Assembly (NCBI GenBank): GCA_964019165.1 | Contig: OZ025283.1 | Location: 12,594,063 to 12,658,062 of the forward strand | DNA length: 64,000 nucleotides | Direction of reading: 5' to 3' | From: Mastigias papua | Lineage: Eukaryota; Cnidaria; Scyphozoa; Rhizostomeae; Mastigiidae | Shown here: piece by piece, positions 1,836 to 22,902 of the stretch | Layout of the letters: every line of letters begins with the position of its first letter | How positions within the stretch are numbered: position 1 is the first letter of the stretch | Notes under the pieces: generated by a model | Databases searched by the model: none | Seen by the model: only the letters and a program-made list of their open reading frames with translations | What the model was told of the DNA's origin: nothing | Program-made: the position numbers and the translations under genes

Positions 1836-2060
1836 GCATATATAAAATAACTATTATTCTATAACATAATTTTATTGGTAAAATATTTTATTGTTTTTAT
1901 AAACTAGCCATTTTCCAATGACTTTACTAATTAACCCATTTTTCATTGGCGTTAATAAATAAACCTTACTTATAGGGTTACTTAATGGGGCATGGATTAT
2001 TTGTTATTTATTGGTTTTAGACAATTTAGTCTTAAACGGCCGTGAATAATGGAATCACCC

Positions 2061-2098
2061 GGCCAGATTATTTTAGCTTTAGCTAAAATAATGTGGCC
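2061..2098. repeat. Near-perfect hairpin in the left inverted repeat
   Basis: A perfect 12-bp stem ATTATTTTAGCT (2067-2078 with 2081-2092) has a two-base loop. It is extended by GGCCA/TGGCC past a single G-G mismatch. The same hairpin lies at 21480-21517 in the right repeat. Confidence 0.9.
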
Positions 2099-2402
2099 AT
2101 TCAATCAGTCAATTGTTTTATAAACTAGCAATTTTCCATTGGCCTTACTAAATAACCTTACTAAATGGGGTTATTATTTGGCATCAATTTTAATTTCAAT
2201 TTTAATTTCAATACCAATTAACCCATTTTATTGGCATTTTAGCTTAGTCACAAAGAATAGTATTATGTATTTGCAGCATTTTCGTGCGGTTTTAATTCAT
2301 TTGTTATTTGTTGATTGATTGATTGGTTGGTAACATGGGGTGTGAGATTAAAATGGGTGCGTTATGTGTATAAAATATAAATATAGTTATATATATATAA
2401 GA

Positions 2403-2903: not shown

Positions 2904-2978
2904 ATATAATGTATTTTTTATTTAACCACTAAGTGGGTATTCGTAATATTATATTTTATTGTAATATAAAATATAAGA

Positions 2979-3623: not shown

Positions 3624-3635
3624 TAATATATATAT

Positions 3636-3785
3636 ATGAGTGATATATATTGTGTGAAATGCAAAACAAAAACACCAACTGTAGATGAAAAAATTGTAAC
3701 AACAAAAAATAATAGAAATGCTATCACGGGGCAATGTCAAAATTGCGGAAGGACAAAATACATGTTTATTAAGAAACAATTATAA
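3636..3785 (+). CDS. Small zinc-ribbon protein (DUF5679-like)
   Basis: This is a 49-residue protein with Cys6-x2-Cys9 and Cys34-x2-Cys37, and a middle TTKNNRNAITG that matches the pattern of the DUF5679 zinc ribbons of phages and large viruses. It closely resembles the first 45 residues of the next gene, so the two are tandem duplicates, one free and one fused. It starts 12 bp after the ATPase stop and ends 11 bp before the fusion gene. The start box is TATATATAT. Function is unknown; nucleic-acid binding is a guess. Confidence 0.8.
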   Translation: MSDIYCVKCKTKTPTVDEKIVTTKNNRNAITGQCQNCGRTKYMFIKKQL

Positions 3786-3796
3786 GATATAGTATA

Positions 3797-5152: not shown

Positions 5153-5191
5153 AAAAAAAGACTTAAAGAAAATTTTATATATATAAATTAT

Positions 5192-8100: not shown

Positions 8101-9082
8101 CGAAAAATTAATTTGTAATTTAGATAAAAAAGAAAATTACACATTACATTATCTTACATTGCAATTTTATTTAAAAATGCCTGGTTTTAAAATTAAAGAT
8201 ATAAATTATATCATTAAATTCAAACAAGCAAAATTTATGAAAGATTATATCGAATACAATCATAAAAATAGAATTGAGGCTGACAATAATAATGATAAAC
8301 TGATGTACAAACTTATGATAAATTCATGTTTTGGTAGAACGCTTTTAAATAAAATGAAATACTCAAGTAATATAAAGATGTTTAACGATGATGATTATGA
8401 AAAAGTTTTAAAAATAATATCTAGCGATCGATTTAAAGATTATGAAATAATCGATGAGAATAATGCTCTATTAAATATTGAAAAACAATGTATAAAATTA
8501 GACTCACCATCGTACATTGGCTCATGTATTTTAGACTTGTCGAAAATAATTTTCTATGATAATTTCTATAAATTGAAAAAAAGATATGGTAATAATATTT
8601 CATTAATGTATTATGATACTGATTCGTATTTATGTCATATTAAAACTGATGATGTTTACAAAGATATGAGTGAAATGGATATTTTTGACATGACATCTTA
8701 TAAATCTGATTTTAAATACTATAAACAAGGAGTTTATGAAATGGGTCTATTAAAAGATGAAAATTCTGTATATAATTCACAAATTGTTGAGGCATGTGCT
8801 TTGAAGAGTAAATTATATGGATATAGAAAAGAGAATGAAAAAGTTAATTTTAAAGGTATTAAAAATCAATTAGATTTTCAATCATTAAAAGATGCTATAT
8901 TTGATAATGAAACAATTAAAAGTGAATTTTATACAATAAAAGCTAAAGATCATAAAATATTTTCATACACAGATCAAAAATTATTAATGTCATATACAGA
9001 TAAACGTTATTTATATAATCCTGTTATGTCATATGCTTATGGTCATTACATGATTGATAATAATTATGAAAATATGATATAA
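5192..9082 (+). CDS. Protein-primed family B DNA polymerase
   Basis: The 1,296-residue pPolB replicates the linear element from a terminal protein. The exonuclease motif is YCDFESIL (Asp498, Glu500). A zinc-bearing endonuclease VII-like insert follows at about 591-625, with CEFC, HHNHLSGD and CQSC. Polymerase motif A is FDINSMYG (Asp at about 877), motif B KLMINSCFG (about 1044) and motif C YYDTDS (about 1142). The first 480 residues contain an acidic stretch, the N-terminal region typical of Polinton polymerases (TKSCINIKNTDDKCFLYC) and a C2HC-like finger near CQNCFKQF. All catalytic motifs are intact. The start follows ATATATATAAATTAT. Hairpins follow its stop. Confidence 0.97.
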   Translation: MDNQFENFITVYKNILNKKNNRDIKKIIFFALQSIKNYDITKFKPKQQIIINQLKKYYDKPSKNSENELNGSIMQYYIDQDDEIDEDEEGVDIELDEQDNEIRRHFIFDDKQKLYYDVEEVVQLEKYTIEKLLSVYNITLKPHLDDEIGQWFCEDQLEFSKPYKRVFIKQYIKKHGIIKCNTVVQVIMISVHDKKKKIYPIFQTKYTIIRNAEDVDYFLRQSELDIKSRIGMFTKKMNAKESVETTQISPSGFIDMGIEYERLNIVKIRNVFASGYIELPYRIINTKSCINIKNTDDKCFLYCHLLHERYRKNGFKKIQGAERLHGEKAFNYNNKMIHLNYENIHFPIPFNTFHIIKQVEEQNQIRINIFEYKENKKNDVVPIYHSKKEYENCMNLLIITDKTKKKYHYVYIKNLNGLLRSNFKRIDNKICQNCFKQFSNKKAFDSINHKCNHKYDSSVLPSHMAIVDNKLVKCPIDMYVKEFNKKHTIFLPFVMYCDFESILKKTVDEKHPDKRQHELSSYCYNLVCRERPIFNRFKLYRGNGEESVIDNFLNEVKTNVLEHIKQCKKKFYALPVLTDEQLKRHKKIKKCEFCNVKFNTEIKKVQHHNHLSGDFIATICQSCNSKIRVDSTLYIVFHYLRGYDIHYIITKINDYFKDSNINLLGHNSSSIFHVGIQNNIKIIDSHEYIKGSLKSLSENLKDKDIIHTHELVNKYGREYLIKDIFPFRYVDSFSKYNENTFPDIEYFDNIDKDTYNKYRKFYYSMFNTLGEYSDYYLSKDVKLLSDIMESYRGLFMDKYGTEIFSHYSINSLTWEVMKKWCPVQIKILDNYKIYSAFESMVRGGLCDIASMRYACANNKYMKHYDPTTESSYIMHFDINSMYGHVMRSYPLPYDEFSYLTNEEIQQFNIWDHDINSEYGYILNIDISEIDIKYHDFYNDLPLFPVKNKILKKNLSDYQKQILKDKSFISTEKLICNLDKKENYTLHYLTLQFYLKMPGFKIKDINYIIKFKQAKFMKDYIEYNHKNRIEADNNNDKLMYKLMINSCFGRTLLNKMKYSSNIKMFNDDDYEKVLKIISSDRFKDYEIIDENNALLNIEKQCIKLDSPSYIGSCILDLSKIIFYDNFYKLKKRYGNNISLMYYDTDSYLCHIKTDDVYKDMSEMDIFDMTSYKSDFKYYKQGVYEMGLLKDENSVYNSQIVEACALKSKLYGYRKENEKVNFKGIKNQLDFQSLKDAIFDNETIKSEFYTIKAKDHKIFSYTDQKLLMSYTDKRYLYNPVMSYAYGHYMIDNNYENMI

Positions 9083-9088
9083 AAATTA

Positions 9089-9114
9089 TGCACTTATCTT
9101 ATAATATAAGTGCA
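9089..9114. terminator. Palindrome after the polymerase gene
   Basis: TGCACTTAT (9089-9097) and ATAAGTGCA (9106-9114) form a perfect 9-bp stem with an 8-base loop, 6 bp after the polymerase stop. Two smaller palindromes follow: TTATCTCATCAGATAA and ATTACATATCATGTAAT, at about 9155-9187. A transcript-end hairpin is plausible by analogy with large DNA viruses, but this is inferred. Confidence 0.45.
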
Positions 9115-9206
9115 GTTAATACACTTATCTCGTTAATTAATTACAACATATGTATTTATCTCATCAGATAATTACATATCATGTAATTATTATAATATAT
9201 ATTATA

Positions 9207-9950
9207 ATGAAATTAGAAGATTATAAAAAACTTATTGAAATACAATTATTGACTGAATCAGGGTTGCAAAATATACTTGAAGCTAATAAGGCATATCAAA
9301 ATAATGAAATTGATAAGGATTTTAATAATGCAAAATTGTTTAAGCCATTAATAGAATCAAATAAAGAATTATTCGATCGTATCGGGAAAAAAACAGATCA
9401 AAGTGACGAAATAATAAAAAAAATTACAGACGCAATACTATTATATAATCAACAACCACAAGCACAACCACAAGCACAGCCACAAGCACAAGCAGAAGCA
9501 CAAGCAGAAGCACAAGCAGAAGCACAAGATGAAGCACAAGATGTAAAGGAAGAAGAACAAGTAAACATTGAAAAATCATCTGACTTTGTTGGTGATATAA
9601 TAAAAGGTAAGAGTATATTTTTATATACATCAAAAAAAGGTGATATATATACAGATTTAGAACTACTTAATTTACATGATTTGAATAAATTTTCAAAAGA
9701 AGAGTTAAAAGATTACTTAAACAGACCACAATTGATTTCATTGTCAAAACAATTAACTTCTCTTCATCACTATAGACCAGACAATGTAACATTAAAATCA
9801 TATCTTGATAATTTAAATGAATATAAAAAAAAAATAAATGAAATAATAGATAGTAAAAAAGATAAAGAAACAAGTAATGATACTACAAAACCTTTAAAAA
9901 CAAAGATAAAGAAAGCGAAGAAACAAGTAATGATACTACAAAACCTTTAA
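9207..9950 (+). CDS. Two-frame virion-type protein, first part
   Basis: This frame encodes 247 residues. The N-terminal part is charged and likely helical. A low-complexity run of Gln-Ala and Gln-Ala-Glu-Ala repeats follows at about residues 82-112, then a Lys-rich tail. I chose the start at 9207 because it follows ATAATATATATTATA; an ATG at 9150 would lie upstream of that box. The frame ends inside a tandem repeat whose units are 53 then 57 bp, and the following ORF continues in the -1 frame without its own start box. The two are therefore parts of one gene, joined by frameshifting or separated by a small deletion. I do not recognise the family; position next to penton and hexon genes suggests a structural role. 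Confidence 0.75.
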   Translation: MKLEDYKKLIEIQLLTESGLQNILEANKAYQNNEIDKDFNNAKLFKPLIESNKELFDRIGKKTDQSDEIIKKITDAILLYNQQPQAQPQAQPQAQAEAQAEAQAEAQDEAQDVKEEEQVNIEKSSDFVGDIIKGKSIFLYTSKKGDIYTDLELLNLHDLNKFSKEELKDYLNRPQLISLSKQLTSLHHYRPDNVTLKSYLDNLNEYKKKINEIIDSKKDKETSNDTTKPLKTKIKKAKKQVMILQNL

Positions 9951-9995
9951 AAACAATAGAAAATAAAGAAAACGAAGAAACAAGTAATAATAAAG
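9867..9995 (+). repeat. Coding tandem repeat where the reading frame changes
   Basis: GAAACAAGTAATGATACTAC begins at 9867 and 9920, and a partial third unit begins at 9977. Spacing is 53 then 57 bp. The 57-bp unit keeps frame; the 53-bp unit lacks four bases and shifts it. Confidence 0.85.
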
Positions 9996-10645
9996 ATATA
10001 ATATCACGTCCTTTTAAAATAGTGGCACGTAAAGAAGTAGAAGGTCAAGGTATTAAAAAACGAAGAAATGGTTATAAGATAGAGAATGAGAAATATGGAG
10101 AAAAGATTAAAATAAACATGGATAAATTATTTAATAATTATTACGTCGAAGCATGGTATGACGATCATATTGTTTATCAAAACCAGGGGGATAAAGATAC
10201 TGTGGAACTCTTGACAAAAGGTAGAATTAATAAGAAGAAAAAATATAGTAAAATAAGTCAACAGATTTTTAATGATATGGTTACATTATCAGGAATGGTT
10301 AAAAGAAATGGTAAAAATAAATTATTAGGCTCAAGTAATATTATTTTAAACGAGAATGACTTAAAAAAAAGGATCGCTTTATTAAGAGGTTCTGTCATTG
10401 CTGGTAACGATAACAAGAAAATACAACAGGAATTAGCAAGTCTTAGTAGTCAAAAAGACGTGGTACAAAATAAATCGATCGATAATTTATTTACTGATCT
10501 TAAAACATTAACACCGATATTAAAAACGAGTCAAGGAGACGAAAATGTTCATAATCAAGTTTATAATATTATTGATTATCTCAGAACGAATCGACATATA
10601 TCACGCGATCAATATCATAAATATATAAAAAAACATTTAATGTAA
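9881..10645 (+). CDS. Two-frame virion-type protein, second part
   Basis: The frame is open from 9881 and continues the repeat-encoded pattern of the upstream gene before a basic region (GQGIKKRRNGYKI) and a helical C-terminal half ending at 10645. It has no ATG near its beginning: the first possible non-ATG start is GTG at 10022 and the first ATG is at about 10118. Unlike almost all other genes here it lacks the AT-rich start box. It is best read as the C-terminal part of the protein starting at 9207. The family is not recognised; gene order places it among virion genes. Confidence 0.7.
   Translation, partial: YYKTFKNKDKESEETSNDTTKPLKTIENKENEETSNNKDIISRPFKIVARKEVEGQGIKKRRNGYKIENEKYGEKIKINMDKLFNNYYVEAWYDDHIVYQNQGDKDTVELLTKGRINKKKKYSKISQQIFNDMVTLSGMVKRNGKNKLLGSSNIILNENDLKKRIALLRGSVIAGNDNKKIQQELASLSSQKDVVQNKSIDNLFTDLKTLTPILKTSQGDENVHNQVYNIIDYLRTNRHISRDQYHKYIKKHLM
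9893..9899 (+). promoter_or_regulatory. Possible -1 frameshift heptamer T TTA AAA
   Basis: The heptamer lies in the overlap of the two frames (9881-9947) and is phased as xxT TTA AAA in the upstream frame. It is a permitted but weaker slippery site. No strong downstream pseudoknot was identified by eye. The unequal repeat units offer a competing explanation by deletion. Confidence 0.4.
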
Positions 10646-10656
10646 TATAATATAAA

Positions 10657-11421
10657 ATGGATTACCCTATATATATCGATACAACAAAAATTAACGAAAC
10701 CCCTAATTTATACGGTACACATAACGATTTTTATGTTGTAATGGAAGGCGATGGCTTAGAGTTCCCTAATACTAATGAAAATTATCTTGCATTAGTTACT
10801 TTTAATCTTAATTATACATGGAATAACATCGATTCTACTAAATATAATAATAATACTGTTAGATATAGCTCGGATAACGGTTCTACGTTTAAAACGATTA
10901 CATTCGCTGATGGTAATTATAGCTACTCAGATATAAGTAATTATATATCTAATTATCTTGAAAGTCAAAGTGACTCAAAAACAGGAATACAATTGTATTA
11001 CGTTAGTAGTTTAAAGAAAATATTCATTGAATTAGAGTCTAATTATAAAATCGATTTTCGATCCAATAAGAGCTTCGCAAAATTATTAGGTTTTGAGAAT
11101 TCAAATGCTATAATAGCAACAAGTGGTTATAGTAACGATACACCGGATATTACGAATTCTTTAGACAACATTAATGTTCATTGTAGTTTATTATCCGATA
11201 CGATTTACAATGGTGTGCGATCTGATATCCTTTATACATTTGGCGTCAGCGAATACCGTATAGGTTATACAATACCAATAAAAGAGCAAAATGTATTAAC
11301 TTTTCATAAGATGAATAATTATTTAGTAAAAAGAATGCGTATTCAGATTAAAGATTCGTTAGATAGACCTGTTGATTTACGCGATCCAATTACAATGTTA
11401 TTATTTATACGAAAATATTAA
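10657..11421 (+). CDS. Penton-like minor capsid protein
   Basis: The 254-residue protein has the length and beta-rich make-up of the single jelly-roll penton proteins of Polintons and adintoviruses. Features include an N-terminal strand region, YSYSDISNYISNYL as a short helical insert, a central CSLLSDTIYNGVRSDILY segment and a C-terminus ending in RDPITMLLFIRKY. Penton proteins form the five-fold vertices of the capsid. The start follows AATATAATATAAA 11 bp after the previous stop. It lies upstream of the hexon-like gene. The assignment rests on pattern and position. Confidence 0.75.
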   Translation: MDYPIYIDTTKINETPNLYGTHNDFYVVMEGDGLEFPNTNENYLALVTFNLNYTWNNIDSTKYNNNTVRYSSDNGSTFKTITFADGNYSYSDISNYISNYLESQSDSKTGIQLYYVSSLKKIFIELESNYKIDFRSNKSFAKLLGFENSNAIIATSGYSNDTPDITNSLDNINVHCSLLSDTIYNGVRSDILYTFGVSEYRIGYTIPIKEQNVLTFHKMNNYLVKRMRIQIKDSLDRPVDLRDPITMLLFIRKY

Positions 11422-11422
11422 T

Positions 11423-11440
11423 TATATCATATAATATAAG
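11423..11440 (+). promoter_or_regulatory. Element-wide AT start box (representative)
   Basis: A box close to TATATAATATAAG sits within about 0-15 bases of the ATG at 2403, 2979, 3636, 3797, 5192, 9207, 10657, 11441, 11834, 13135, 14450, 15452, 15555, 17800 and, on the minus strand, 18775, 19974 and 21185. Leaders would be almost absent if this is the promoter. The ORFs from 9881 and 14040 lack it. The general AT-richness lowers the weight of any single example; consistent placement is the evidence. Confidence 0.6.
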
Positions 11441-11818
11441 ATGAATAGAAGTTTTCGAGATGAGAAAATAAGAGATACTTATGGTTATGGCATTTCTGAC
11501 GTGTTTAAAAGTATGTTTAATTCCGCAGCTAAAAATATAGCAAGTGAATCAACAAAAAAGATAGCTAAAACTGCTATTGAAAGTGCTGCCAAATCAAGCG
11601 CAGATGTATTGGGAAAAAAGAGTGCTGAACATATAGCAAATAAAATATTTAACAATACAGATAAAAAGACTGAACAAATAATTGAACAAACACCAAATAA
11701 TGATGTAATACCAAATAAAGGCCAAATTATAGAAAAAGAATTAAAGAAGATATATAAGACAGAAGATGATATTAATAATAAAAGTGACATTTCAAAGAAA
11801 TTCAATGAATTATTATAA
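11441..11818 (+). CDS. Small virion-type protein, unrecognised
   Basis: This is a 125-residue basic, Ala-, Ser- and Lys-rich, probably helical protein. It opens with NRSFRDEKIRDTYGYGISD and has an amphipathic helix-like stretch (AAKNIASESTKKIAKTAIES). It lies between the penton-like and hexon-like genes, where related elements often encode small core or minor capsid proteins. The start follows ATCATATAATATAAG. No catalytic motif or membrane span is visible. A core-protein role is inference. Confidence 0.7.
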   Translation: MNRSFRDEKIRDTYGYGISDVFKSMFNSAAKNIASESTKKIAKTAIESAAKSSADVLGKKSAEHIANKIFNNTDKKTEQIIEQTPNNDVIPNKGQIIEKELKKIYKTEDDINNKSDISKKFNELL

Positions 11819-11833
11819 TATATAATATAAGAG

Positions 11834-13105
11834 ATGAATTTTGATTTTCGTAAAGACACTGAAAAATGCGATTTAGTAATTCAGCCACCTATTGATTCTT
11901 CACAACCAAAAAAATATATCTTCAGAATCGGTAGTTCACAGGATTATTTGCCGATTGATTGGTACAAGTCTTATTTACATGTTACATTAGATGTTAAAAA
12001 AAAATCAGACGGCTCTGCTCTTACAGGTAGTTCTAATATAGCGCTTGCCAGTGATAGTTGTTCTTTAATTAATAGCTTCAAATTTGAATCTGACAGCCGT
12101 CAAATTTATTATTCTACTGACATTAATTATGCAATGACGACTAAAAACCTTATGGAATTGAGCAATGAATATATAAATACTGCAGGAAAACGTATGTTTA
12201 TGTATCCAAGCCTTAAAAATGGTACAACAATTGCCAAATACACAATGGATACAACGACGAATACAGTGAAATCAGATAATCCATTATATAATGCTAATCA
12301 TCATAAACGAATGATTTTAACGAAATCAACGATAGATATGATAATTCCATTAAACTGTATGGAGTTCTTTCAAAGCATGAAAAACACCCTTATCCCGCCT
12401 ACTAAAGTCGAAGTTACAATTGATATTGAACAGGACGATATTCTACTTTACCGTAGTGGAGGCACTGATGCTAAAATAGTTATCAAGGATATATTTTTAT
12501 GTTATGAAAAATTGACTTTATCAGCAGCAAATCGATTACTGTATACAAAATTCTTATCAAGTCAACAAATTATTAATTTTTACAGAGAATCTATTGTCTT
12601 CCAAACAAGCTTGAAAAATCGTGAGAAAAATATCATTCTATATGAAACAATAAATAAACCAAGAGAGCTGTTTGTTTGGTTTACTTATACGGAAAATAGA
12701 ACTGGCAGACAGACCAATGATTCGTTTGAAATAGATACAAATTCAATGGCAATAGTGAATGCAACTGTTGTTGTAAATGATAATATTCATGTACCAATGA
12801 CTCCATATAATTGTTCCACACGAAGTATACAAGCTTATAACGAACTACTTAAATATATGACGAATAAAAACAAACGTGAAAGTGCGTTTATTGATTATGA
12901 ATTATTTAAGACAAAGTACATGATTTTGTATTTCGATCTTAAGAATAATATAACAGATACGTTACGTAACAGTTATTGTAAAATAGAATTCAAATATATA
13001 TTAAGGGATGAAATGGCGAGCGAATACACAATATATTCGTTGATGCTTCATGAAGATCAGTATAAGATCTCGCTTATTAACGGAAAGAGTGAGATTATAA
13101 AATAA
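11834..13105 (+). CDS. Hexon-like major capsid protein (double jelly roll)
   Basis: The 423-residue protein has the length and beta-rich composition of the Polinton major capsid protein. Blocks supporting this are YKSYLHVTLDVKKK with SLINSFKFESDSRQIYY near the N-terminus, TIDMIIPLNCMEFFQSMKNT before the second jelly roll, and a C-terminal VWFTYTENRTGRQTND region. Double jelly-roll proteins form the trimers of the capsid facets. The start follows TATAATATAAGAG. It sits between the small virion protein and the pVI-like gene, matching the order in related elements. The frame is intact. Confidence 0.85.
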   Translation: MNFDFRKDTEKCDLVIQPPIDSSQPKKYIFRIGSSQDYLPIDWYKSYLHVTLDVKKKSDGSALTGSSNIALASDSCSLINSFKFESDSRQIYYSTDINYAMTTKNLMELSNEYINTAGKRMFMYPSLKNGTTIAKYTMDTTTNTVKSDNPLYNANHHKRMILTKSTIDMIIPLNCMEFFQSMKNTLIPPTKVEVTIDIEQDDILLYRSGGTDAKIVIKDIFLCYEKLTLSAANRLLYTKFLSSQQIINFYRESIVFQTSLKNREKNIILYETINKPRELFVWFTYTENRTGRQTNDSFEIDTNSMAIVNATVVVNDNIHVPMTPYNCSTRSIQAYNELLKYMTNKNKRESAFIDYELFKTKYMILYFDLKNNITDTLRNSYCKIEFKYILRDEMASEYTIYSLMLHEDQYKISLINGKSEIIK

Positions 13106-13134
13106 ATCAATTAATCTACAATATAATATAATAG

Positions 13135-13986
13135 ATGAAATTAATTAATGTTACAATCACACAAAATCAAAAAGATAAATTAAGAAGAGCATATGATAAA
13201 CGTGAAAACATTGGATTGAAATTATTATATAATCCACATGGAGATAGTATTTATGTGAATGATAGACAATATAACAAATTAATGAAAGGGAAACCTGTGA
13301 TTATTAATTTTAATGATTCACATTTCCGCGCGATGAAACAAGATGAACAAGATGGTGGTAATTTATTAACATCGTTAATAGGACCAATAACAAAACTCGC
13401 AACTAAAGTAGCACCTGCTTTAACTAAAACAGTTTTGCCCGGTCTTGCTACAGGCGTTGCCAGTGCCCTAGGATCGTTGGGCATAGACAGTTTGTTCAGT
13501 GGTAAAGGGATTGATGGAAAAACAGCAGATCTTATAAAAGCACTCGCTGTTATTGAGAATGAAGTCAGAAAGTTAAATAAACCACAAAAAAGTAAATTTG
13601 ATGAAATTATGATGACAGGAAACGGTCAAACAGGAGGCTTTCTCGGGACCCTTCTGGCTAGTATCGGGTTACCGATCGTTATAAAGGCTCTAACGGGATC
13701 TGGTATCCATAATAGGCCTTATTATATGCAAAGTTATAAAACACACCCTAAGAAAATACCAATACCAGAAAACCAAAAACCTATTGTAAAAGAGCCTTCA
13801 GGTACTGCATTAACAGAGTGGGAATTATGGAATCCACCGCCTTTTAATGATAATCATGAAATGATTGAATACAAAGGTAAAGGTGTAAAAAAAAAAAGAT
13901 CAAAAACACACGGAGACGGAATCTTGTTCGGGAATTCAAAAAACAACCCATTTCGGGACGTGCCGTTGTTAAATATCCTGTTTTAA
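13135..13986 (+). CDS. pVI-like minor capsid, membrane-active protein
   Basis: The 283-residue protein opens with a conserved VTITQNQKDKLRRAYDKREN region. Two Gly-Gly-led hydrophobic segments follow: GGNLLTSLIGPITKLATKV onward (about residues 74-125) and GGFLGTLLASIGLPIVIKAL (about 167-190). A basic tail follows. Related proteins recur beside hexon genes in invertebrate Polintons. The hydrophobic, Gly-rich segments after Gly-Gly pairs suggest membrane-active peptides released by an adenain-type protease, as in adenovirus pVI; this is inference. Its 3' end overlaps the -1 frame leading into the protease, and AAAAAAC lies in phase at 13938. Confidence 0.75.
   Translation: MKLINVTITQNQKDKLRRAYDKRENIGLKLLYNPHGDSIYVNDRQYNKLMKGKPVIINFNDSHFRAMKQDEQDGGNLLTSLIGPITKLATKVAPALTKTVLPGLATGVASALGSLGIDSLFSGKGIDGKTADLIKALAVIENEVRKLNKPQKSKFDEIMMTGNGQTGGFLGTLLASIGLPIVIKALTGSGIHNRPYYMQSYKTHPKKIPIPENQKPIVKEPSGTALTEWELWNPPPFNDNHEMIEYKGKGVKKKRSKTHGDGILFGNSKNNPFRDVPLLNILF
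13938..13944 (+). promoter_or_regulatory. Candidate -1 frameshift heptamer A AAA AAC
   Basis: The heptamer is phased xxA AAA AAC in the pVI-like frame, a strong classical -1 slippery site. The -1 frame is open from 13881 through the protease stop at 14435. An 11-A run at 13887-13897 is a second possible slip site. The protease lacks both a nearby upstream ATG and the element's start box, which fits expression by frameshifting. Confidence 0.55.
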
Positions 13987-14039
13987 AATTTAAAGACACT
14001 AGTACAAGTAATACATATTTACAGTCATGGATTGATCAC

Positions 14040-14435
14040 ATGAAAATAAAGAACTTCGGTGGAATATATGCAAAAGATCAAATAACAACCGATATGATTA
14101 AAAGTAAACATTTTTATATCATAAATTTAGACAATATGTTTTCGCCTTCAAATGGCACACATTGGGTAGTCTTTTATGTTGATGATGATAGTATCGAGTA
14201 TTTTGACAGCTATGGATTAAAACCACCACAAATCATCAGTGAAAATTATGATTATATATATAACAGTTCGCAATTGCAGTCATATGAAAGTAAGGCTTGC
14301 GGTTATTATTGTTTATATTTTATTTATCATCGATCACATGGTTTTAATTTTTATGAGATTATAAAACAGTTTAGTCTTGTTGATCTTGATTACAATCAAA
14401 ATCTTATAAAAAAATTCTTTAATAATTATAATTAA
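14040..14435 (+). CDS. Adenain-like cysteine protease
   Basis: From its only early ATG this is 131 residues, with the adenovirus protease/Ulp1 triad: His41 in GTHWV, Asp56 in YFDSYG and Cys87 in ACGYYC, plus Gln78 or Gln80 for the oxyanion hole. It would mature virion proteins. The frame is open upstream to 13881, and the residues just before the ATG (SWIDH) continue the usual N-terminal pattern of Polinton proteases. The ATG at 14040 thus probably lies inside the domain. No AT-rich start box precedes it. Expression as a -1 extension of the pVI-like gene is the best explanation; in adenovirus a pVI peptide activates this protease. Confidence 0.88.
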   Translation: MKIKNFGGIYAKDQITTDMIKSKHFYIINLDNMFSPSNGTHWVVFYVDDDSIEYFDSYGLKPPQIISENYDYIYNSSQLQSYESKACGYYCLYFIYHRSHGFNFYEIIKQFSLVDLDYNQNLIKKFFNNYN

Positions 14436-14449
14436 TATTATATATATAA

Positions 14450-15439
14450 ATGGGAGTTCACGACGGTTCACATAAAATCGAGAATACAAACGATCAATAT
14501 ATAAAAAAACGTGAAGATATTGATATGCATAACAGAAGAATTGATAATCTAAAAACGATTTGTATGACAAATTCAACAAATAATTTAAAATATGCTATTA
14601 ACATGGAATGCTTAATAAATTATACAATAAACAGTTTGTCAGAAACGTTGTTTTGGGAATATTATCAACAAGCGACCGCATTTTATAAAATAGACACAGC
14701 GAATTCACATGAATTGACGTTTGATTCAGTGAGAAGCGTTTCGAAATTGTTTGATCAAAGTCTGTCACAATCGAATGCAGAACAAACCACATATAATTTA
14801 CAACCGACAATTTGTACGAAAGCAAATAGAATAAATAATCGTTATTATCTTGAATTTGACGGGAGTAAAAAACAAAGAATGATATCTGATATAAACTTAA
14901 ACGCAAGTGCGGGTGAAGAAGATATAATAAATATTTTTATCGTGTATTATATCGATTCATTTGGTGGTTCTTATTGGACCAGATGCGGGCTCTACGGGGC
15001 AGATAACGGTGGGTTTGATGCCTTTACTAGTTTTAGTCCACATGGCGATTTAATCGTGTCGAAAACAACTAACGATCATATAGTCATTGGAAAAAGTGTC
15101 ACAAACGGACGTTCGCCGATAGCAGATTTTCAAAATAAAGCAAATGCAGGAGAAATCGGCAAATGGATTTGTTTAAGTGTTCATTGGAATATTCCTAGTG
15201 AAACGTCATATGTTTATTGTAACGGAAAGAAATTGACGGATTTCACAAGCAGGAGTAGCATTGGAAGCACCCAAATGACATTCGGTGACTTGAACCCATC
15301 ATCTATTGCGCCGTTTTTTGGTAAAATAGCTAGTTTTTTATTATATAAAAATAAACGTATGTCAAAACATGATATTTTAATTCATCATAAAGTGCTATGC
15401 AAATGGTATGGTGTTGATCATGATGAAATTATATTCTAA
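14450..15439 (+). CDS. Lectin-like (LamG/ConA-type) attachment protein
   Basis: The 329-residue protein has an N-terminal DIDMHNRRIDNLKTI motif, like the repeats that start many viral fibre proteins. A C-terminal half follows with a concanavalin/laminin-G-like pattern: YYLEFDGSKKQRM, a central IFIVYYIDSFGGSYW strand pair, WICLSVHWN, SYVYCNGKKLTDF and a last strand GKIASFLLYKNKRMSKHDI. Such domains bind glycans or proteins. The 740-residue protein two genes on ends with a related domain (VYVNGNKIQD). Start box TATTATATATATAA. A surface-attachment role is inference. Confidence 0.7.
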   Translation: MGVHDGSHKIENTNDQYIKKREDIDMHNRRIDNLKTICMTNSTNNLKYAINMECLINYTINSLSETLFWEYYQQATAFYKIDTANSHELTFDSVRSVSKLFDQSLSQSNAEQTTYNLQPTICTKANRINNRYYLEFDGSKKQRMISDINLNASAGEEDIINIFIVYYIDSFGGSYWTRCGLYGADNGGFDAFTSFSPHGDLIVSKTTNDHIVIGKSVTNGRSPIADFQNKANAGEIGKWICLSVHWNIPSETSYVYCNGKKLTDFTSRSSIGSTQMTFGDLNPSSIAPFFGKIASFLLYKNKRMSKHDILIHHKVLCKWYGVDHDEIIF

Positions 15440-15451
15440 TATAATATATAA

Positions 15452-15544
15452 ATGAACCATCATACATTAATATATTTTATTCGCCGTTTGATTTTTACAA
15501 TACCCTTACCATTAATATGGTTAATATTATTTCAATTATTATAA
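15452..15544 (+). CDS. 30-residue membrane peptide
   Basis: The peptide starts MNHHTLIYFIRRL and continues as an almost wholly hydrophobic segment containing PLPLIWLILF, enough for one membrane span. The ATG directly follows TAATATAATATATAA, the start box used by the other genes, which is the main support that it is real. It lies between the two attachment-type genes, 12 and 10 bp from each. Function is unknown. Confidence 0.6.
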   Translation: MNHHTLIYFIRRLIFTIPLPLIWLILFQLL

Positions 15545-15554
15545 CATATATTAT

Positions 15555-17777
15555 ATGGGAAAATACGATGGAGTTATATCAGATTTTAAAGATTATGAAT
15601 CTCAAGTTAAATTTAACATGAATGATTTTCACTGGTCGAATGATAATATGATAAATATCAATAAAAATCTTAAATTTATTCTTCATAAATCACAATATAG
15701 TGATAAATTCACTATTACAAACGATACGTTAGACATCGATAAAGATAAAATTGAAATTAATCCAAAATCTATTATTCCTATAGATTCATCAGGCGTGCCT
15801 ACAAGTATTATAAGCGTAAATGGAGATGATAAATTGATATTGAATTTGTCGTCAGATTTCATGACTCTGAACAACATGCTTTATTGCAATTTGGGCGCAG
15901 GATTAACAAGAGATGATCAAAATCGTGTTACAATCGATTTATATGGCTGTAATCTCAAATTTATCAATAACAAACTCTGCTTTGACAACAGCAGTCTAAT
16001 TGATAATTTCAATTGTATAAAATTAGATGATAAACAAAGATTAAGATTAGATTATAATACAGATGATTTTATAAAAGATTCAACAGGTAAATTATGGTTA
16101 AAGATATATGATAAACATCTCAAACGTACTCAAAATGGCGTTGAATTAAATATCGATAATGATACAATAAAATTTGATACAAATGAAAGTAAATTAATTT
16201 CGAGTATCGATAAATATCTTGTTAATCAATACGCGCAGAATGGTGATATTTATTTAGATACAAACAAGAAAATGAAGATTAATATAAACAATTACGTGGA
16301 TGATAATATAGGAAGTAAAGTTGTGATGAATACAAATAACAAAATCGATCTCGATATTGTAAATCAACAGTCAGGCGAAATATATTTTGAAAAACCAAAT
16401 GAATTGGCTATCCGACCTTCACCGTATTTTACACGCGACTCATCAGGACACCTTCTACCAGTCGTAAACAATGATCATGGTTTAAATCTTAATAATTACA
16501 AATTGAATTTAGACGTAAGTCCCCCATTAAATTATTCAAATAAAAAAGTAACATTAGATTATACACCATATTTTAAATTAAGTAGTGACGGCAAATTAAG
16601 TCTTGATATAGACAAATTAATCACGGACGTTATTATACCAAAACAGAACGAGGGTATAAAATTAAATAATGACCGCACGTTATCGATAGACACGTCTGTT
16701 TTAACATCGTTACTTAATGTTGGTTCGTTATCAGCCCTGAAAATCGTAGGAAACACTCTTATTGTAGATGAGACTGAAATGTCAAAAAATATAATTCGTC
16801 TCAATTCGAACAGCCCGTTAAAAAGAAGGTCTAATAACTATTACGAGGTTGAGTGTGATAGAATTAGCATAGATAGTGACTTTACAACAGGTGCTTTGAA
16901 AGTTAAAGATACATACGTCCCATCAGTTGTAACAGAAGATTATATTAAAAATAAAGTAATTAACGAATCGTACTTTAAAGATATGTTAAAATTTCAAGGC
17001 CCAGCCATTTTAAACCGATGTAGTTTATGTTATTGGGATTTAAATAACGTGTCAGATGTTGATAAAACAATCGGAACCAATAGTGTAACAATAAACAAAT
17101 TTCATAATCAAAAGCATAAATTTAATGATTTTTATTATTTTACAACTGAAAAACAACCTAATTATAATTATAAGCACTTTTCATTTTCAGTTTTTAATTA
17201 TATAAATAACGATAATTACATATTTTTTAATAACACCAATCAAAAAATCAATTTTGTAGACTCATTTCTTAAAAAGAATCAGTTATTTTCATTTGCTTTC
17301 AATTTTATAATATCCCCAGAGAAAAAAACAGTAGATATAAATTCAACTTTATTTCAATCAGGAAGTTATGATTATATTAAAATTCTGTATAACAACCAAG
17401 GCATCATTTTTCGATTTGGGGATATGTATAATGCAAGTGGGGATTATGTATTGGAAAGTATTATACCAACACCAACGTCATTATTAAATCGGAAAAATGT
17501 TATAACAATATATTTTAATGGAATTAACGATATTAACACAAACAACAGAAAATCAATTGTTTATGTGAATGGTAATAAAATTCAAGACATTGTATTTACT
17601 ATTACCCCGTCGTTTATTTCATATACCCAACAATATAATAATTTTCAATTGTGCAATAATACTGATAATTCACAATCGTTTAACGGCAAATTCTATGATT
17701 TTTCGATGCTGCAAAATATTAGCGTAGAAGAAATGATAAATTTACATGAGTATTATAAGTATATCCATAATATATAA
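15555..17777 (+). CDS. Adenovirus-fibre-like protein with lectin-like head
   Basis: The 740-residue protein has a long central region, residues about 60-470, of short alternating-hydrophobic repeats with Gly or Asn turns, such as NGVELNIDNDTIKF, NYKLNLDVSPPLNY and LSSDGKLSLDID. This resembles the triple beta-spiral shaft of adenovirus fibres. A hinge-like segment leads to a C-terminal head (about 490-740) with laminin-G/ConA-like strands (SFAFNFIISPEKK, SIVYVNGNKIQD, FNGKFYDFSM), related to the head two genes before. The N-terminus (about 1-60) could anchor in the penton. It is probably a trimeric receptor-binding spike; this assignment is from pattern only. The start follows ACATATATTAT. Confidence 0.65.
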   Translation: MGKYDGVISDFKDYESQVKFNMNDFHWSNDNMININKNLKFILHKSQYSDKFTITNDTLDIDKDKIEINPKSIIPIDSSGVPTSIISVNGDDKLILNLSSDFMTLNNMLYCNLGAGLTRDDQNRVTIDLYGCNLKFINNKLCFDNSSLIDNFNCIKLDDKQRLRLDYNTDDFIKDSTGKLWLKIYDKHLKRTQNGVELNIDNDTIKFDTNESKLISSIDKYLVNQYAQNGDIYLDTNKKMKININNYVDDNIGSKVVMNTNNKIDLDIVNQQSGEIYFEKPNELAIRPSPYFTRDSSGHLLPVVNNDHGLNLNNYKLNLDVSPPLNYSNKKVTLDYTPYFKLSSDGKLSLDIDKLITDVIIPKQNEGIKLNNDRTLSIDTSVLTSLLNVGSLSALKIVGNTLIVDETEMSKNIIRLNSNSPLKRRSNNYYEVECDRISIDSDFTTGALKVKDTYVPSVVTEDYIKNKVINESYFKDMLKFQGPAILNRCSLCYWDLNNVSDVDKTIGTNSVTINKFHNQKHKFNDFYYFTTEKQPNYNYKHFSFSVFNYINNDNYIFFNNTNQKINFVDSFLKKNQLFSFAFNFIISPEKKTVDINSTLFQSGSYDYIKILYNNQGIIFRFGDMYNASGDYVLESIIPTPTSLLNRKNVITIYFNGINDINTNNRKSIVYVNGNKIQDIVFTITPSFISYTQQYNNFQLCNNTDNSQSFNGKFYDFSMLQNISVEEMINLHEYYKYIHNI

Positions 17778-17799
17778 TAAAATTATAATATATATTATA

Positions 17800-18243
17800 A
17801 TGGATTCACCGAGAAAAGTTATGTCGTTTATTTACAAAAATCTATATTTATTTGATAATGATAAATATAAAGACTATGATAGAAATATAATTAAAGGCGC
17901 GTTAGCATATAAATACTTATTAGCAGTTTATTTAAATATTAAGGATATTACTGTTGATGAAATTTTAATTCTTCAAGAGGACATAGGATTAATTGGCCCA
18001 GGCAGCCATAATTGCTTAGTATCCTGTTTAGAATTTTTATGTAGTAATCGAATTTGCCATACCCATAGTATTCTACATGATTCATATGGTAGGATTTTTC
18101 AATCATATAATATAGGCCGTGGTTATAATTATATGTTTAATGTGCCTAATTGGATAAGAAAATGCCCGTTGTTCGGCCATATCACCGGTTTGTTGTATTC
18201 GATTTATTATAATATCAGATATTATCGTGAATATCAAACTTAA
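17800..18243 (+). CDS. Unrecognised 147-residue protein
   Basis: The start at 17800 follows AATATATATTATA; an ATG at 17746 would overlap the fibre gene. The sequence is compact, with GPGSHNCLVSCLEFLC, then THSILHDSYGRIFQSY and a hydrophobic PLFGHITGLLYSIYY near the C-terminus. GPG followed by a His-Asp pair recalls phospholipase A2, but the spacing and other residues do not fit, so I do not assign it. Its last 29 bases overlap the 3' end of the opposite-strand VLTF3-like gene. Confidence 0.65.
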   Translation: MDSPRKVMSFIYKNLYLFDNDKYKDYDRNIIKGALAYKYLLAVYLNIKDITVDEILILQEDIGLIGPGSHNCLVSCLEFLCSNRICHTHSILHDSYGRIFQSYNIGRGYNYMFNVPNWIRKCPLFGHITGLLYSIYYNIRYYREYQT

Positions 18244-18775
18244 ATATTTCTTTTATTTTATTCCATATGATTAAATATTCGTTTGTTTTTCTAACATTAT
18301 TCCGTATTTTAATATTATGACATTTTCCATGTTTTAAGAATTCAATATATATTTGTCTGATAACATATTTTAAATTAATTTTTTTAATCATATTATTATC
18401 TTTTTGCCATTCGATAATTTTATTACAATATTCTAAGATAATATACCTTTGATATTCGCTCATAAATATACTATATTGTTTGTTAATTTCATTCAAGGAG
18501 TTTAATATATAATATTTTCTGTGATATACACTCTGTTTCTTCTTATTATAACAATCATACGGTTGTAAATCAGCGTTGAAATAATTTATTAAACATGAAC
18601 AGGTTTTGCAGTATTTCCCATTTTCATGAACATAATAATCAATACCATTACAATTCTCACATTCATCATGTTCTTTTTTGACTTGATATTTTAATATCTT
18701 AAGATATTTATCACAATAAAGACAATAGCTTTGATCCATTTTAAGAAATTGAATATGAATGTCACGATTGCACAT
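18215..18775 (-). CDS. VLTF3-like transcription factor with zinc ribbon
   Basis: The 186-residue protein has an N-terminal zinc cluster (CLYC, CENC, CKTC). A domain then begins VYHRKYYILNSLNEINKQY and continues as helices. This matches the layout of poxvirus late transcription factor 3-like proteins of large DNA viruses: a Cys-rich start followed by a Tyr-x-Arg motif and helical body. Such factors switch on late virion genes, here possibly through the shared start box. The start at 18775 follows AATATATAATATACAT on the minus strand; Met12 is an alternative. It converges with the gene before it. The family call is moderate. Confidence 0.6.
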   Translation of the reverse strand: MCNRDIHIQFLKMDQSYCLYCDKYLKILKYQVKKEHDECENCNGIDYYVHENGKYCKTCSCLINYFNADLQPYDCYNKKKQSVYHRKYYILNSLNEINKQYSIFMSEYQRYIILEYCNKIIEWQKDNNMIKKINLKYVIRQIYIEFLKHGKCHNIKIRNNVRKTNEYLIIWNKIKEIFKFDIHDNI

Positions 18776-18789
18776 ATGTATATTATATA

Positions 18790-19974
18790 TTATATTTGTT
18801 TCTTCAATATGATCTTTTTTTTGATAAATGATCTACACTTCCCATGAGATTTATCATAGGTATTTTGATCATAAAAACTATCAAATAATGCTCGATGACA
18901 AAAGACATAACTTAAACATTTTATTGAATCATTTTTTAACATATATTCAAAATCATCTTTACTTATGATAAGAGAATATTTCTTTATAAAATATTTTAAG
19001 AATACTAATTTATCATATTTAATTATTTCTTTCATAATATCCTTTGCCACAAATGAGCAGCCTTGATCAATAAGATATTTTATAACACTGATTTTTTTAT
19101 TTTGAACAGCTAAACGACACGAGTCGTCATCAAATAATAAAATATCATTTTTATGTAAATATTTAATGCAATCTAAATCACAATATTTTACAGCGGTTAT
19201 GGCAGTATATAATTCGTAATCACACATAGATTCAACCAAAAATTTTATACAATCTAATAAATTATTTTCAATAGCCAATGAAAATGTATTATGAGTTATT
19301 TTAGATCCGTTTTCGTGAGCATATTTTAAACATTCTCGTTTACCATCCTTTAAACAACATAATGTTGCGCTTAAATCATCAAATTTTAAATGCATAATTT
19401 CATGTAAATATTTTAAGATTCTTAGATCATTATTTTTACATGCTTCATTAATCATGTCTTCATCTGTTGGACATCCGTTTTCACACGCATATTCGAGACA
19501 ACCAAAATTATTATTTTGTATAGCCTTATAAATTGTCATTTCATCCCATGGACAACCATTATCATGAGCATATTTTAAACAATGTATATAACCGTACTCA
19601 GCCGCAATATCACACACTTGCGTATTCCATGGACATTTATTATCATGTAAATATCTCATAATACCTAATGCATCAGCTTTACAAGCGTTTTCCATTGTTT
19701 TTTCATCAATTGTATCACCATTATCATGTGCGTATTTTAAGCATTGTAAATTACCATAAGCTGCTGCTATATTACAAATACCTTTTAATGAACAACATTC
19801 TTCTTTATGAACTTTTTTGAGACATTTTAAATGTCCCATTTGTGCTGCAGACTTAGAACGATTTAATGAATAATCTTGATCTTCTTGTTGGTATTTTAAC
19901 TGAATATCGAAACATTTTTTAAAATCGCCCATATTCTCTTCTTGTGTGATTTCGCAAAAATAACAACTACTCAT
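18790..19974 (-). CDS. Ankyrin-like 27-residue repeat protein (long, first)
   Basis: The 394-residue protein from 19974 has about a dozen degenerate 27-residue repeats (CLKYAHDNGCPWDEMT and variants) after a short Cys-bearing N-terminus (MSSCYFCEIT), and ends in a basic tail. I chose 19974 because the box TATATATATTATA lies just before it; the upstream ATG at 20019 would overlap the next gene. Repeats here are more diverged than in the neighbouring copy. Protein-binding and possible host-interaction roles are inferred from the repeat type only. Confidence 0.8.
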   Translation of the reverse strand: MSSCYFCEITQEENMGDFKKCFDIQLKYQQEDQDYSLNRSKSAAQMGHLKCLKKVHKEECCSLKGICNIAAAYGNLQCLKYAHDNGDTIDEKTMENACKADALGIMRYLHDNKCPWNTQVCDIAAEYGYIHCLKYAHDNGCPWDEMTIYKAIQNNNFGCLEYACENGCPTDEDMINEACKNNDLRILKYLHEIMHLKFDDLSATLCCLKDGKRECLKYAHENGSKITHNTFSLAIENNLLDCIKFLVESMCDYELYTAITAVKYCDLDCIKYLHKNDILLFDDDSCRLAVQNKKISVIKYLIDQGCSFVAKDIMKEIIKYDKLVFLKYFIKKYSLIISKDDFEYMLKNDSIKCLSYVFCHRALFDSFYDQNTYDKSHGKCRSFIKKKIILKKQI

Positions 19975-20009
19975 TATAATATATATATGGCGATATTTCT
20001 TTAAGTATT

Positions 20010-21185
20010 TTAAACGCATTTATATTTTATATATTGTAAGCAATCTTTTATTTCAATATTTCTTGGTTTGATATGTTTTAATATTTTATTTTTGTCATAA
20101 TAATAATCATTTTCAATAGCATATTTCATAATTCCATAATCTCCGTTATCTACGGCAATATAAACAATCTTTTTACTCATTGGGCAACCATTTTCATGAG
20201 CATATTTAAAGCAATCATAATGTCTATTTTTAACAGCCGTTTCTCCTACTCTCATATTCCAATGACATCCGATATTACGAAGATATTTTAAACATTCTAA
20301 TTCGCCAAATTCACAAGCGAGCAAACAGACTGTCGTTTGTCTTTTGTCTATTTTTAAACCATTTTCATAAGCATATTTTAAACAATCTAAACTTCCTTTT
20401 TTAATAGCACGATAAATTGTTCTACTTTTCCATAGACAGCCATTTTCATGAGCATATTTTAAACATTCTAATTGGTTATTACTTGCAGCCAATTCGCAAG
20501 TCAAACTATCCCAATGGAATTCGTTTTTATGAGCATATTTTAAACATTCTAAATGACCAAAAGCTGCTGCATTTAAGCAAGTGTAAAGATCTTTTGGACA
20601 ACCATTTTCACAAGCATATTTTAAACAATCTAAATGGCCATTGTTTGCAGCACTTCGGCAAACATTGTCATTCCATGGACAGTTATTTTCATGAGCGTAT
20701 TTTAAACAAGCCAATCTACCATTTAAAGCAGCTATAGCGCATGTTTCATAACCCCAAGGACATCCATTTTCATGAGCATATTTAAGACAATCTAAATGAC
20801 CATTTTGTACCGATACATTGATTGTTTCCCCGTTCCATGAACAACCGTTTTCATGAGCATATTTTAAACATTCTAATTGACCGTATTCAGCGGCTGTAGT
20901 ACAAATATCCGCCCAATCATATTTTTTAATATTTAATAAATATTTTAAACAATTCATTTGCCCATATTTTGCAGCCAAATTTAAATAATGATTTTCATTG
21001 ATCATAAAGATTTCATAATCTTCATTGCTATTTTTATCAAGACCATATTTCAAGCATTCTAAATGGCCATTTCTTATAGCTTCCTCTTCATCATTTGTTA
21101 CGCAACATTTTTTATAACCATGTTTTACAGGTATCGAATTATGATCAATAATTTTTCTCGCACTTAAACATTGTAATGAAAACAT
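20010..21185 (-). CDS. Ankyrin-like 27-residue repeat protein (long, second)
   Basis: The 391-residue protein has at least ten repeats of the form GHLDCLKYAHENGCPW in 27-residue steps, closest in sequence to the short copy at the left end. The start follows a TATATATATAAATTATAAGAG box, 39 bp inside the right inverted repeat. Together with its neighbour and the left copy it places ankyrin-like genes next to both ends of the element. The near-identical repeat units within and between genes should favour unequal recombination. Confidence 0.85.
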   Translation of the reverse strand: MFSLQCLSARKIIDHNSIPVKHGYKKCCVTNDEEEAIRNGHLECLKYGLDKNSNEDYEIFMINENHYLNLAAKYGQMNCLKYLLNIKKYDWADICTTAAEYGQLECLKYAHENGCSWNGETINVSVQNGHLDCLKYAHENGCPWGYETCAIAALNGRLACLKYAHENNCPWNDNVCRSAANNGHLDCLKYACENGCPKDLYTCLNAAAFGHLECLKYAHKNEFHWDSLTCELAASNNQLECLKYAHENGCLWKSRTIYRAIKKGSLDCLKYAYENGLKIDKRQTTVCLLACEFGELECLKYLRNIGCHWNMRVGETAVKNRHYDCFKYAHENGCPMSKKIVYIAVDNGDYGIMKYAIENDYYYDKNKILKHIKPRNIEIKDCLQYIKYKCV

Positions 21186-21223
21186 CTCTTATAATTTATA
21201 TATATATAATATTTTTTTAAGTT

Positions 21224-22894
21224 ATTTTAATCTCACACCCCATGTTACCAACCAATCAATCAATCAACAAATAACAAATGAATTAAAACCGCACGAAAAT
21301 GCTGCAAATACATAATACTATTCTTTGTGACTAAGCTAAAATGCCAATAAAATGGGTTAATTGGTATTGAAATTAAAATTGAAATTAAAATTGATGCCAA
21401 ATAATAACCCCATTTAGTAAGGTTATTTAGTAAGGCCAATGGAAAATTGCTAGTTTATAAAACAATTGACTGATTGAATGGCCACATTATTTTAGCTAAA
21501 GCTAAAATAATCTGGCCGGGTGATTCCATTATTCACGGCCGTTTAAGACTAAATTGTCTAAAACCAATAAATAACAAATAATCCATGCCCCATTAAGTAA
21601 CCCTATAAGTAAGGTTTATTTATTAACGCCAATGAAAAATGGGTTAATTAGTAAAGTCATTGGAAAATGGCTAGTTTATAAAAACAATAAAATATTTTAC
21701 CAATAAAATTATGTTATAGAATAATAGTTATTTTATATATGCTAGTGACTGAAACCAGTATCACACGACGATACATAAAGCTAACGCTTTATGTAGTATT
21801 AGCTGCGCTAATACTAATGCGTCGCGTGGTCTTGCTCGCCACTAAACCAGGTTTAACTTTGTCAAAAACCTACGGTTTTTAACTTCGTTAAACCTAGCTT
21901 AGTGGCTCGCGGGCAGTGTCTGTAACCAATAAAAGTAATTATTCTATGAAATCATAAATAAGAATTCCATAAGATAAATGGAAATATGTTTATAATAAAT
22001 ATTTCTTATGAAAACAAGGACATCATAATCCTTGATTTTTTCAATACCCCAATTTAAGAAACCAAGATTAGAGCTACCGCCCTAATTGAAAATGAAAATA
22101 AAAGAGAACAATCCATGAAACCATAAAATATGTTCCATTAATAACGAAGTGGTTTTATTATACCATAGGAAGATTTTTTTAAATTATATTAATAATTATT
22201 TCCATTGTATTTAATCCATTTATTCTAAATTAATACCATTACATTTATATCAATATTTTATTCCATTTTATTTATACTAGTCCTTTTTAATCCATTTTAT
22301 AAATCCATATTATAAATCCATTTTATAAATCCATTTTATACCCCCATTTTATAAACTCATTTTATACCCCCATTTTATAAACTCATTTTATAAAACCATT
22401 TTATAAATTCATTTTATAACTTCATTTTATAAATCCATTTTATAACTCTATTTTATAAATCCATTTTATAAATTCATTTTATACCCCCATTTTATAAATT
22501 CATTTTATAAATCCATTTTATAAATCCATTTTATAACTTCATTTTATAAATCCATTTTATAACTCTATTTTCATAACACCATTTTATAACTCTATTTTCA
22601 TAACACCAATTTATAACTTCATTTTATAAATTTATTTTATAACTCTATTTTCATAACTCCATTCTATAATTCACATTCAATTCACGCCAATCATTCCATA
22701 ATCCATTTTAATTAACTATTTTATTTTACTATTTTAATAAATCATTCTTATACCTAATTTTATAATTCTGTTATTTTACATTTATTAAATTATACCATTA
22801 TAATTTATTATAAATTATTCCATTTTTAATTTACACCCCTCTCTACCCCACTTTTACCCATTTTTGTTCCAGCTCATGCTACTATCATTATATA
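21224..22894 (-). repeat. Right terminal inverted repeat, 1,671 bp
   Basis: This is the reverse complement of 684-2354, of equal length, including the minisatellite (22288-22663), branched hairpin cluster (21743-21918) and 12-bp-stem hairpin (21480-21517). It ends ...CTATCATTATATA before TGCCATTA. No gene is seen in it. Confidence 0.95.
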
Positions 22895-22902
22895 TGCCAT
22901 TA
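22895..22902 (+). repeat. Polinton target-site duplication, right copy
   Basis: This second TGCCATTA copy is followed directly by the continuation of the 5' LTR (ACTGAGTCTTTCTC), exactly as in the 3' LTR. Confidence 0.85.

Follow-up and report, generated by a model that had tools for sequence, protein, structure and literature searches.

The window that we analysed is a stretch of 64,000 nucleotides from the scyphozoan Mastigias papua (GenBank assembly GCA_964019165.1, contig OZ025283.1, positions 12,594,063 to 12,658,062 of the forward strand), and near its start lies a complete Polinton/Maverick element that encodes a fibre-like spike (Table 1). The two inverted repeats are 100% complementary over 1672 nt. 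Together with a 6-bp target-site duplication, a retroviral-type integrase (Pfam rve) and a packaging ATPase (Pox_A32), they identify a Polinton/Maverick, which bears out the proposal of an earlier note, made from the letters alone, that the spike is Polinton-encoded. The element was inserted into the left LTR of a retrotransposon that looks Gypsy-like from its open reading frames (ORFs) at 22974-27763. The two pieces of the interrupted LTR (553-676 and 22902-22939) match their counterparts in the second LTR (27781-27904 and 27911-27948) at 100%, and this intact LTR (27781-27948) is a clean empty site with a single copy of GCCATT at 27905-27910. Because the LTR pieces are identical and GCCATT occurs once in the intact LTR, the Polinton insertion is young. 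Each inverted repeat holds a 13-bp tandem array of ~29 copies (909-1289 and 22289-22669). Elsewhere in the window a Sina/SIAH-type gene lies at 50911-51864, in keeping with an animal host, and nothing in Rfam matched at gathering scores.

Table 1. Features of the Polinton and of its fibre-like gene, in positions of the window
Feature	Positions	Strand	Basis or remark
Complete Polinton/Maverick element, 22,213 bp	683..22895	.	Inverted repeats and GCCATT target duplication
Left terminal inverted repeat	683..2354	+	1672 nt
Right terminal inverted repeat	21224..22895	-	1672 nt
Target-site duplication GCCATT, 6 bp	677..682, second copy 22896-22901	.	
Genome-packaging ATPase	2979..3623	+	Pfam Pox_A32, E = 3.8e-11
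Integrase, N-terminal DUF5679 and phospholipase A2-like domain	3797..5152	+	Pfam matches
DNA polymerase, 1296 aa, Polinton PolB by position and size	5192..9082	+	PHROG
Candidate penton (minor capsid), 254 aa	10657..11421	+	Position upstream of candidate major capsid gene only
Candidate major capsid protein, 423 aa	11834..13105	+	Position and size only
Adenain-like cysteine protease, 131 aa, weak match	14040..14435	+	Pfam Peptidase_C5, solved-chain match
Second, shorter spike candidate, 329 aa, MGVHDG start, laminin_G_3-type lectin family	14450..15439	+	
Fibre-like spike, whole gene, 740 aa	15555..17777	+	Intact ORF, family members
N-terminal tail, residues 1-58, opens MGKYDG	15555..15728	+	Putative capsid anchor
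Stalk, residues 59-455, roughly 20 strand-turn-strand units, adenovirus-shaft-like	15729..16919	+	
Stalk-head junction, residues 456-479	16920..16991	+	Break points of discordant pairs
Head, residues 480-740, laminin_G_3-like	16992..17774	+	Putative receptor-binding part

The integrase ORF matched rve at E = 6.1e-11, DUF5679 at 1.3e-12 and Phospholip_A2_4 at 3.1e-7. The polymerase ORF matched the PHROG DNA polymerase at E = 1.2e-7 over residues 567-1256 and had no Pfam polymerase match at E <= 1. In Pfam the candidate penton stayed at chance level (best Tli3, 0.034) and the candidate major capsid protein had no match at E <= 1; PHROG held nothing for either at E <= 0.01, and the best solved-structure match of the candidate major capsid protein was at E 0.7. 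For the protease, Peptidase_C5 (adenovirus endoprotease) was found under the cut-off at E = 0.019, and the nearest solved chain was the cysteine protease S273R (E = 0.0035). IMG/VR yielded no relatives of the candidate major capsid protein or PolB. A 283-aa protein at 13135-13986 with a long, hydrophobic, glycine-rich middle could, from its look, be a membrane-active minor capsid protein. Ankyrin-repeat-type ORFs stand beside both inverted repeats (2364-2903, 18790-20019 and 20010-21185), that at 20010-21185 confirmed by Pfam and the other two recognised by look. The string ATAATATAA lies immediately 5' of the starts of the ORFs at 10657, 11441, 11834 and 13135, and in a looser form at 2979 and 14450; it is perhaps a shared promoter, against an AT-rich background.

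The fibre-like ORF is intact from ATG to stop and comes after the candidate penton, candidate capsid, protease and lectin-spike genes on the same strand. Two protein searches listed a family of 97 members at 39-100% identity, including the window's own protein, none of which is named in its source. The family alignment holds 74 of the 97 rows; the 23 left out are fragments and some full-length rows. No fibre relatives were found in IMG/VR, neither fibre nor lectin-spike relatives in the phage collection, and in PHROG nothing matched the fibre below E 0.17.

The earlier note had described a long run of short alternating beta repeats followed by a lectin-like head, and this observation holds for the intact ORF. 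In the 74-row alignment we counted runs of four columns in which conserved hydrophobic positions strictly alternate ('1010'). Residues 59-455 hold 40 such runs where 20.0 are expected, a count reached by none of 2000 shuffles, and the head columns hold 13 where 13.6 are expected. The longer pattern '10101' was weaker in the stalk (11 vs 6.8 expected; 216 of 2000 shuffles as high), and the whole unit pattern occurred 4 times vs 1.0 expected (59 of 2000). We also scored the columns as a chain of strand-turn-strand units: the stalk reached 25.5, against 14.5 ± 2.8 in shuffled columns (0 of 300 as high), and the head 6.9, against 7.9. The chain fits 21 units in the stalk, a soft number because shuffled columns already give 15.8. 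Its score stayed high when the stalks were reversed (22.8, z 4.0), and it therefore reports alternating strands, not the direction of a beta-spiral. Taken together, the pattern tests establish that beta structure alternates here, but they do not establish a spiral. The alternating stretch, which had been taken to run to residue 470, ends nearer residue 455. A strict regular expression for the unit, applied to the window sequence alone, was dropped as evidence (6 matches vs 4.4; 578 of 2000 shuffles as high).

The adenovirus shaft has a step of 15 residues. Near-identical tandem repeats occur in the stalks of 2 of the 97 members at a lag of 15, with no other among the lags of 12-23 tested. Relative to the window protein, insertions in the stalk range are 15 residues long in one row, 45 in two and 1-2 in others; a further insertion of 18 residues in three rows, counted within the stalk range, is not a multiple of 15. 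Comparison of stalk segments with one another reached a best probability of 80% in 120 comparisons, which is supportive, not conclusive.

We then compared the stalk with known proteins. A stalk-only profile, made from the window's protein and seven other members, was run over a set of 177,635 distinct sequences of solved structures. Only two chains came up at E <= 10, each with 'Fiber' as its deposited name: 9fae_A at 0.0088, and 3izo_F, from what we take to be a human adenovirus structure, at 4.1e-5, a value summed over four weak stretches none of which is significant alone (best i-Evalue 3.6). The 74-row full-length profile returned both 'Fiber' chains again, at 0.0016 and 0.0046, with the next match at 0.77. 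As a control, we reversed the eight stalks; they found no fibre among the solved structures (best 0.098). Pfam at E <= 1 recognised Av_adeno_fibre in 6 and Adeno_shaft in 3 of the 8 stalks in their natural order, and neither family in the 8 reversed ones. A Pfam scan of 57 of the 97 members at full length gave weak matches at E <= 0.1, with Av_adeno_fibre in 21 (best 1.4e-4) and Adeno_shaft in 9 (best 4.1e-4), and unrelated families also appeared at E 0.004-0.007 in 3-4 of the 57. Among 15 members scanned, the best Adeno_shaft value was 8.1e-6. The window protein's own Pfam fibre match, at 15.2 bits, is under the cut-off of 30, and as a single-sequence query it found nothing among the solved structures at E <= 1. 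HMMER bias scores were low for the fibre matches of both the stalk and the full-length profiles.

The head is less clear. When nine heads were scanned alone, Pfam recognised Laminin_G_3, a concanavalin A-like lectin family, in two (best E 0.0013), and the same family appeared in 2 of the 57 full-length members (best 0.00035). The adenovirus knob family was not among the Pfam matches of the nine heads at E <= 10, and a head profile found nothing below E 0.46 among the solved structures. On this thin evidence, the best reading is a head that is lectin-like rather than knob-like, in line with the earlier note's expectation. Residues 601-720, within the head, are the most variable stretch. Homology of the head to the neighbouring lectin spike was considered and is unsupported (profile probability 0.6%).

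That neighbouring spike belongs to a family of which 137 members were found and 120 listed. Pfam, run on 28 of the 120 listed members, recognised Laminin_G_3 at E <= 1 in 3, and one member (P0119) passes the Laminin_G_3 cut-off (28.8 vs 27.6 bits); the window's own 329-aa lectin spike matched nothing at E <= 10. The two spikes share a start of the form MGxxDG, found in 76 of the 97 fibre family members and 50 of the 120 listed lectin members and in none of the other ORFs listed for the element, and beyond it we found no sequence similarity between them. The common start leads us to propose a shared vertex anchor. A tail-to-tail profile match between the families was left unused, since its rows had been preselected for the MG..DG start and it is no test. 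A stalk repeat in common with P0186-like lectin proteins was likewise rejected, the best match of the stalk profile (E 0.014) being of low complexity and nothing significant. For 44 of the 120 listed lectin rows, the contig is equal in size to that of a fibre row, which fits fibre and lectin genes travelling together and is uninformative for the other 76.

Some lectin-spike relatives have phage-like surroundings or parts. One (P0192) has a phage tail-fibre-like stalk, with Phage_T7_tail just under the cut-off at E 2.8e-5, and in PHROG it matches families for head decoration at 6.6e-19 and for the tail fibre at 6.6e-16. Another, a 320-aa protein on a metagenomic contig (IMGVR_UViG_3300044453_000216, 9414-10376), is 34% identical in its best segment, at E 1e-33 among candidate stretches, and was seen on this one contig only. 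The contig bears the tailed-phage genes terminase, portal, protease and major head protein, and its 320-aa protein had no match in the phage collection.

We compared stalk (1-455) and head (480-740) across copies in the 64 complete rows of the 74, a completeness filter having removed 10, and found their identities to correlate only weakly (r 0.39). P0005 and P0032 are 99% identical in tail and stalk, and beyond a switch that lies after residue 475 their heads are 58% identical; P0010 and P0034 are 97% and 60% identical in stalk and head, and P0083 and P0090 are 95% and 40%. The reverse case, P0047 and P0086, has 47% in the stalk and 77% in the head. In eight discordant pairs the best single break points fall at residues 415-525. 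In quick trees of 22 rows, two pairs that are sisters by their stalks, P0005/P0032 (support 100) and P0010/P0034 (support 88), were rejected by head data, with p-AU 6.6e-49 and 2.0e-70, values that are optimistic because the pairs had been chosen for their discordance beforehand. The group P0083/P0086/P0090 was rejected as well (p-AU 1.3e-4). The larger group P0083/P0086/P0088/P0090 was dropped as a case of head exchange, since head data do not reject it (p-AU 0.20).

Two main head types account for 22 and 40 of the 64 rows, with two rows apart. Placed on the stalk tree, they require 20 changes; shuffled labels average 20.3, and 107 of 200 shuffles need no more than the observed number. This count may be too high, since segments of tail and stalk correlate poorly even with one another (0.01-0.40 without four divergent rows, 0.44-0.82 with them), which itself suggests recombination within the stalk. 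The starred branches force at least 12 head-type changes. The two head segments vary together (r 0.83) and correlate with any tail or stalk segment at no more than 0.22 in 60 rows, or 0.38 in all 64; thus the head is inherited as a block and is paired with many stalks. It is the near-identical pairs, not the 64-row count, that carry the argument for head exchange. The exchange is read from protein sequences, and some pairs may be assembly chimeras, yet the pattern recurs in several. Different heads on nearly identical stalks are what is new here.

The closest known system is the adenovirus fibre (PF00608 Adeno_shaft, PF06536 Av_adeno_fibre), with which the Polinton protein has in common the plan of tail, stalk and head, the stalk profile likeness, the 15-residue step (in two members) and a nearby gene for a weakly matched adenain-type protease. 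It differs in its laminin_G-like head, in which no knob was found, and in being carried by an integrating element. The N-terminal penton-binding motif of adenovirus fibres, looked for piece by piece, is absent from residues 1-60, which have the conserved MGxxDG instead. We do not class the ORF as an adenovirus fibre, because neither tail motif nor knob is found at the sequence level. The earlier note's proposal is borne out in part: the fibre likeness stands for the stalk, by its fibre-specific profile, clean reversed control and, in two members, 15-residue step. Our reading is that the spike would work like an adenovirus fibre.

Related spikes have been described elsewhere. PMC12220804 reports avian-adenovirus-fibre domains with laminin_G_3, a combination weakly matched here too, in a few proteins of Polinton-like viruses from protists (cryptophytes). 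For bacteriophage-like fibre proteins it refers to earlier reports, the adintovirus paper being one of them. Fibre and laminin proteins are thus already known from protist Polinton-like viruses, and the earlier note's statement that a fibre is not a standard Polinton gene needs that qualifier. As described there, the cryptophyte fibres are often large and modular and end in an endosialidase chaperone; the present protein has a long stalk and one head, and Peptidase_S74, the chaperone family, was found neither in it (Pfam E <= 1) nor in 57 members (E <= 0.1). PMC2588538 names the PRD1 spike and reovirus sigma1/sigmaC as other triple beta-spirals; they resemble the proposed fibre as attachment spikes with such stalks, and were absent from the stalk-profile matches at E <= 10. 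'Cah' proteins, proposed for the capsid surface of adintoviruses and adomaviruses and typically matching reovirus sigma1 in HHpred, are by definition alpha-helical and coiled-coil (PMC11071296, in part), in contrast to the alternating beta strands here. In PMC12724248, virophages are reported to carry tail fibres that are trimeric and resemble T4 gp37. The neighbouring lectin spike has the MGxxDG start and, in some members, a laminin_G_3-type head, on a stalk that is short or, in P0192, phage-tail-fibre-like. Among the matches listed, titles and abstract starts report no adenovirus-type fibre in an animal Polinton, which does not establish its absence from print, and the main texts of PMC11071308, PMC8097293, PMC4028283, PMC4642659, PMC10120064, PMC7805220 and PMC12721341 do not mention a fibre or spike.

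We consider it quite probable that the ORF encodes the receptor-binding fibre of a virion made by this Polinton, with a trimeric triple beta-spiral stalk, a tail held at the vertex and an exchangeable laminin_G-like head. The stalk, of roughly 20 repeats, would form by the winding together of three chains, as in an adenovirus fibre; the MGxxDG tail would hold the fibre on a capsid vertex, as it would the neighbouring lectin spike, and the head would bind a glycan or protein of the host-cell surface. With a generic stalk and a head that forms a module of its own, copies that recombine could swap heads and so alter attachment. The chief competitor is a trimeric attachment spike whose stalk is some other beta fibre, such as a phage-tail-fibre-like beta-prism or beta-helix, that resembles adenovirus by convergence on short alternating repeats. 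The stalk of P0192, an alternation that is not direction-specific and a head without a knob all speak for it, but the stalk profile matches only adenovirus fibre models and 'Fiber' chains, reversed stalks match none, the fibre has no PHROG match below E 0.17 and the tandem repeats step by 15 residues; we regard this reading as improbable.

Many proteins of cell adhesion contain laminin_G domains, and the ORF might instead encode a secreted or cell-surface lectin-adhesin that serves the integrated element or its host and is no part of a virion. Such a role would also agree with Maverick particles not having been observed as of 2021, as PMC8097293 states, but a gene within a run of capsid-type genes, with a start common to the lectin spike and virus-fibre-type stalk repeats, makes it very unlikely. 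Hardly credible at all is chance, by which an AT-rich gene for an Asn/Lys-rich protein would alternate by accident: the composition is biased and the single-sequence regular expression is not enriched, yet the conserved columns alternate beyond shuffles, HMMER bias scores on the fibre matches are low and the family has many long members, and the controls disfavour it. The virion fibre is thus the preferred reading, with the trimer, its triple beta-spiral, the vertex attachment and the receptor binding all putative.

A tip that varies between near-identical stalks is in keeping with a protein by which a real virus attaches to cells. To enter cells, an element would need a gene of this kind, intact and coding for a fibre whose stalk is conserved while its head varies and is exchanged, and the gene so supports a viral life for these Polintons. 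More tentatively, and with belief short of even, we suggest that the stalk in animal Polintons may be truly homologous to that of the adenovirus fibre, inherited by way of the tectivirus-Polinton-adenovirus line and fitted with exchangeable lectin heads; near-free reassortment of heads and stalks, as expected of infectious viruses under host-range selection, would then mark them as recently active viruses, not only transposons. Should the stalk be homologous to the adenovirus fibre, it would add one more gene to the link between Polintons and adenoviruses, and the fibre is a concrete protein to seek as a sign of Polinton virions.
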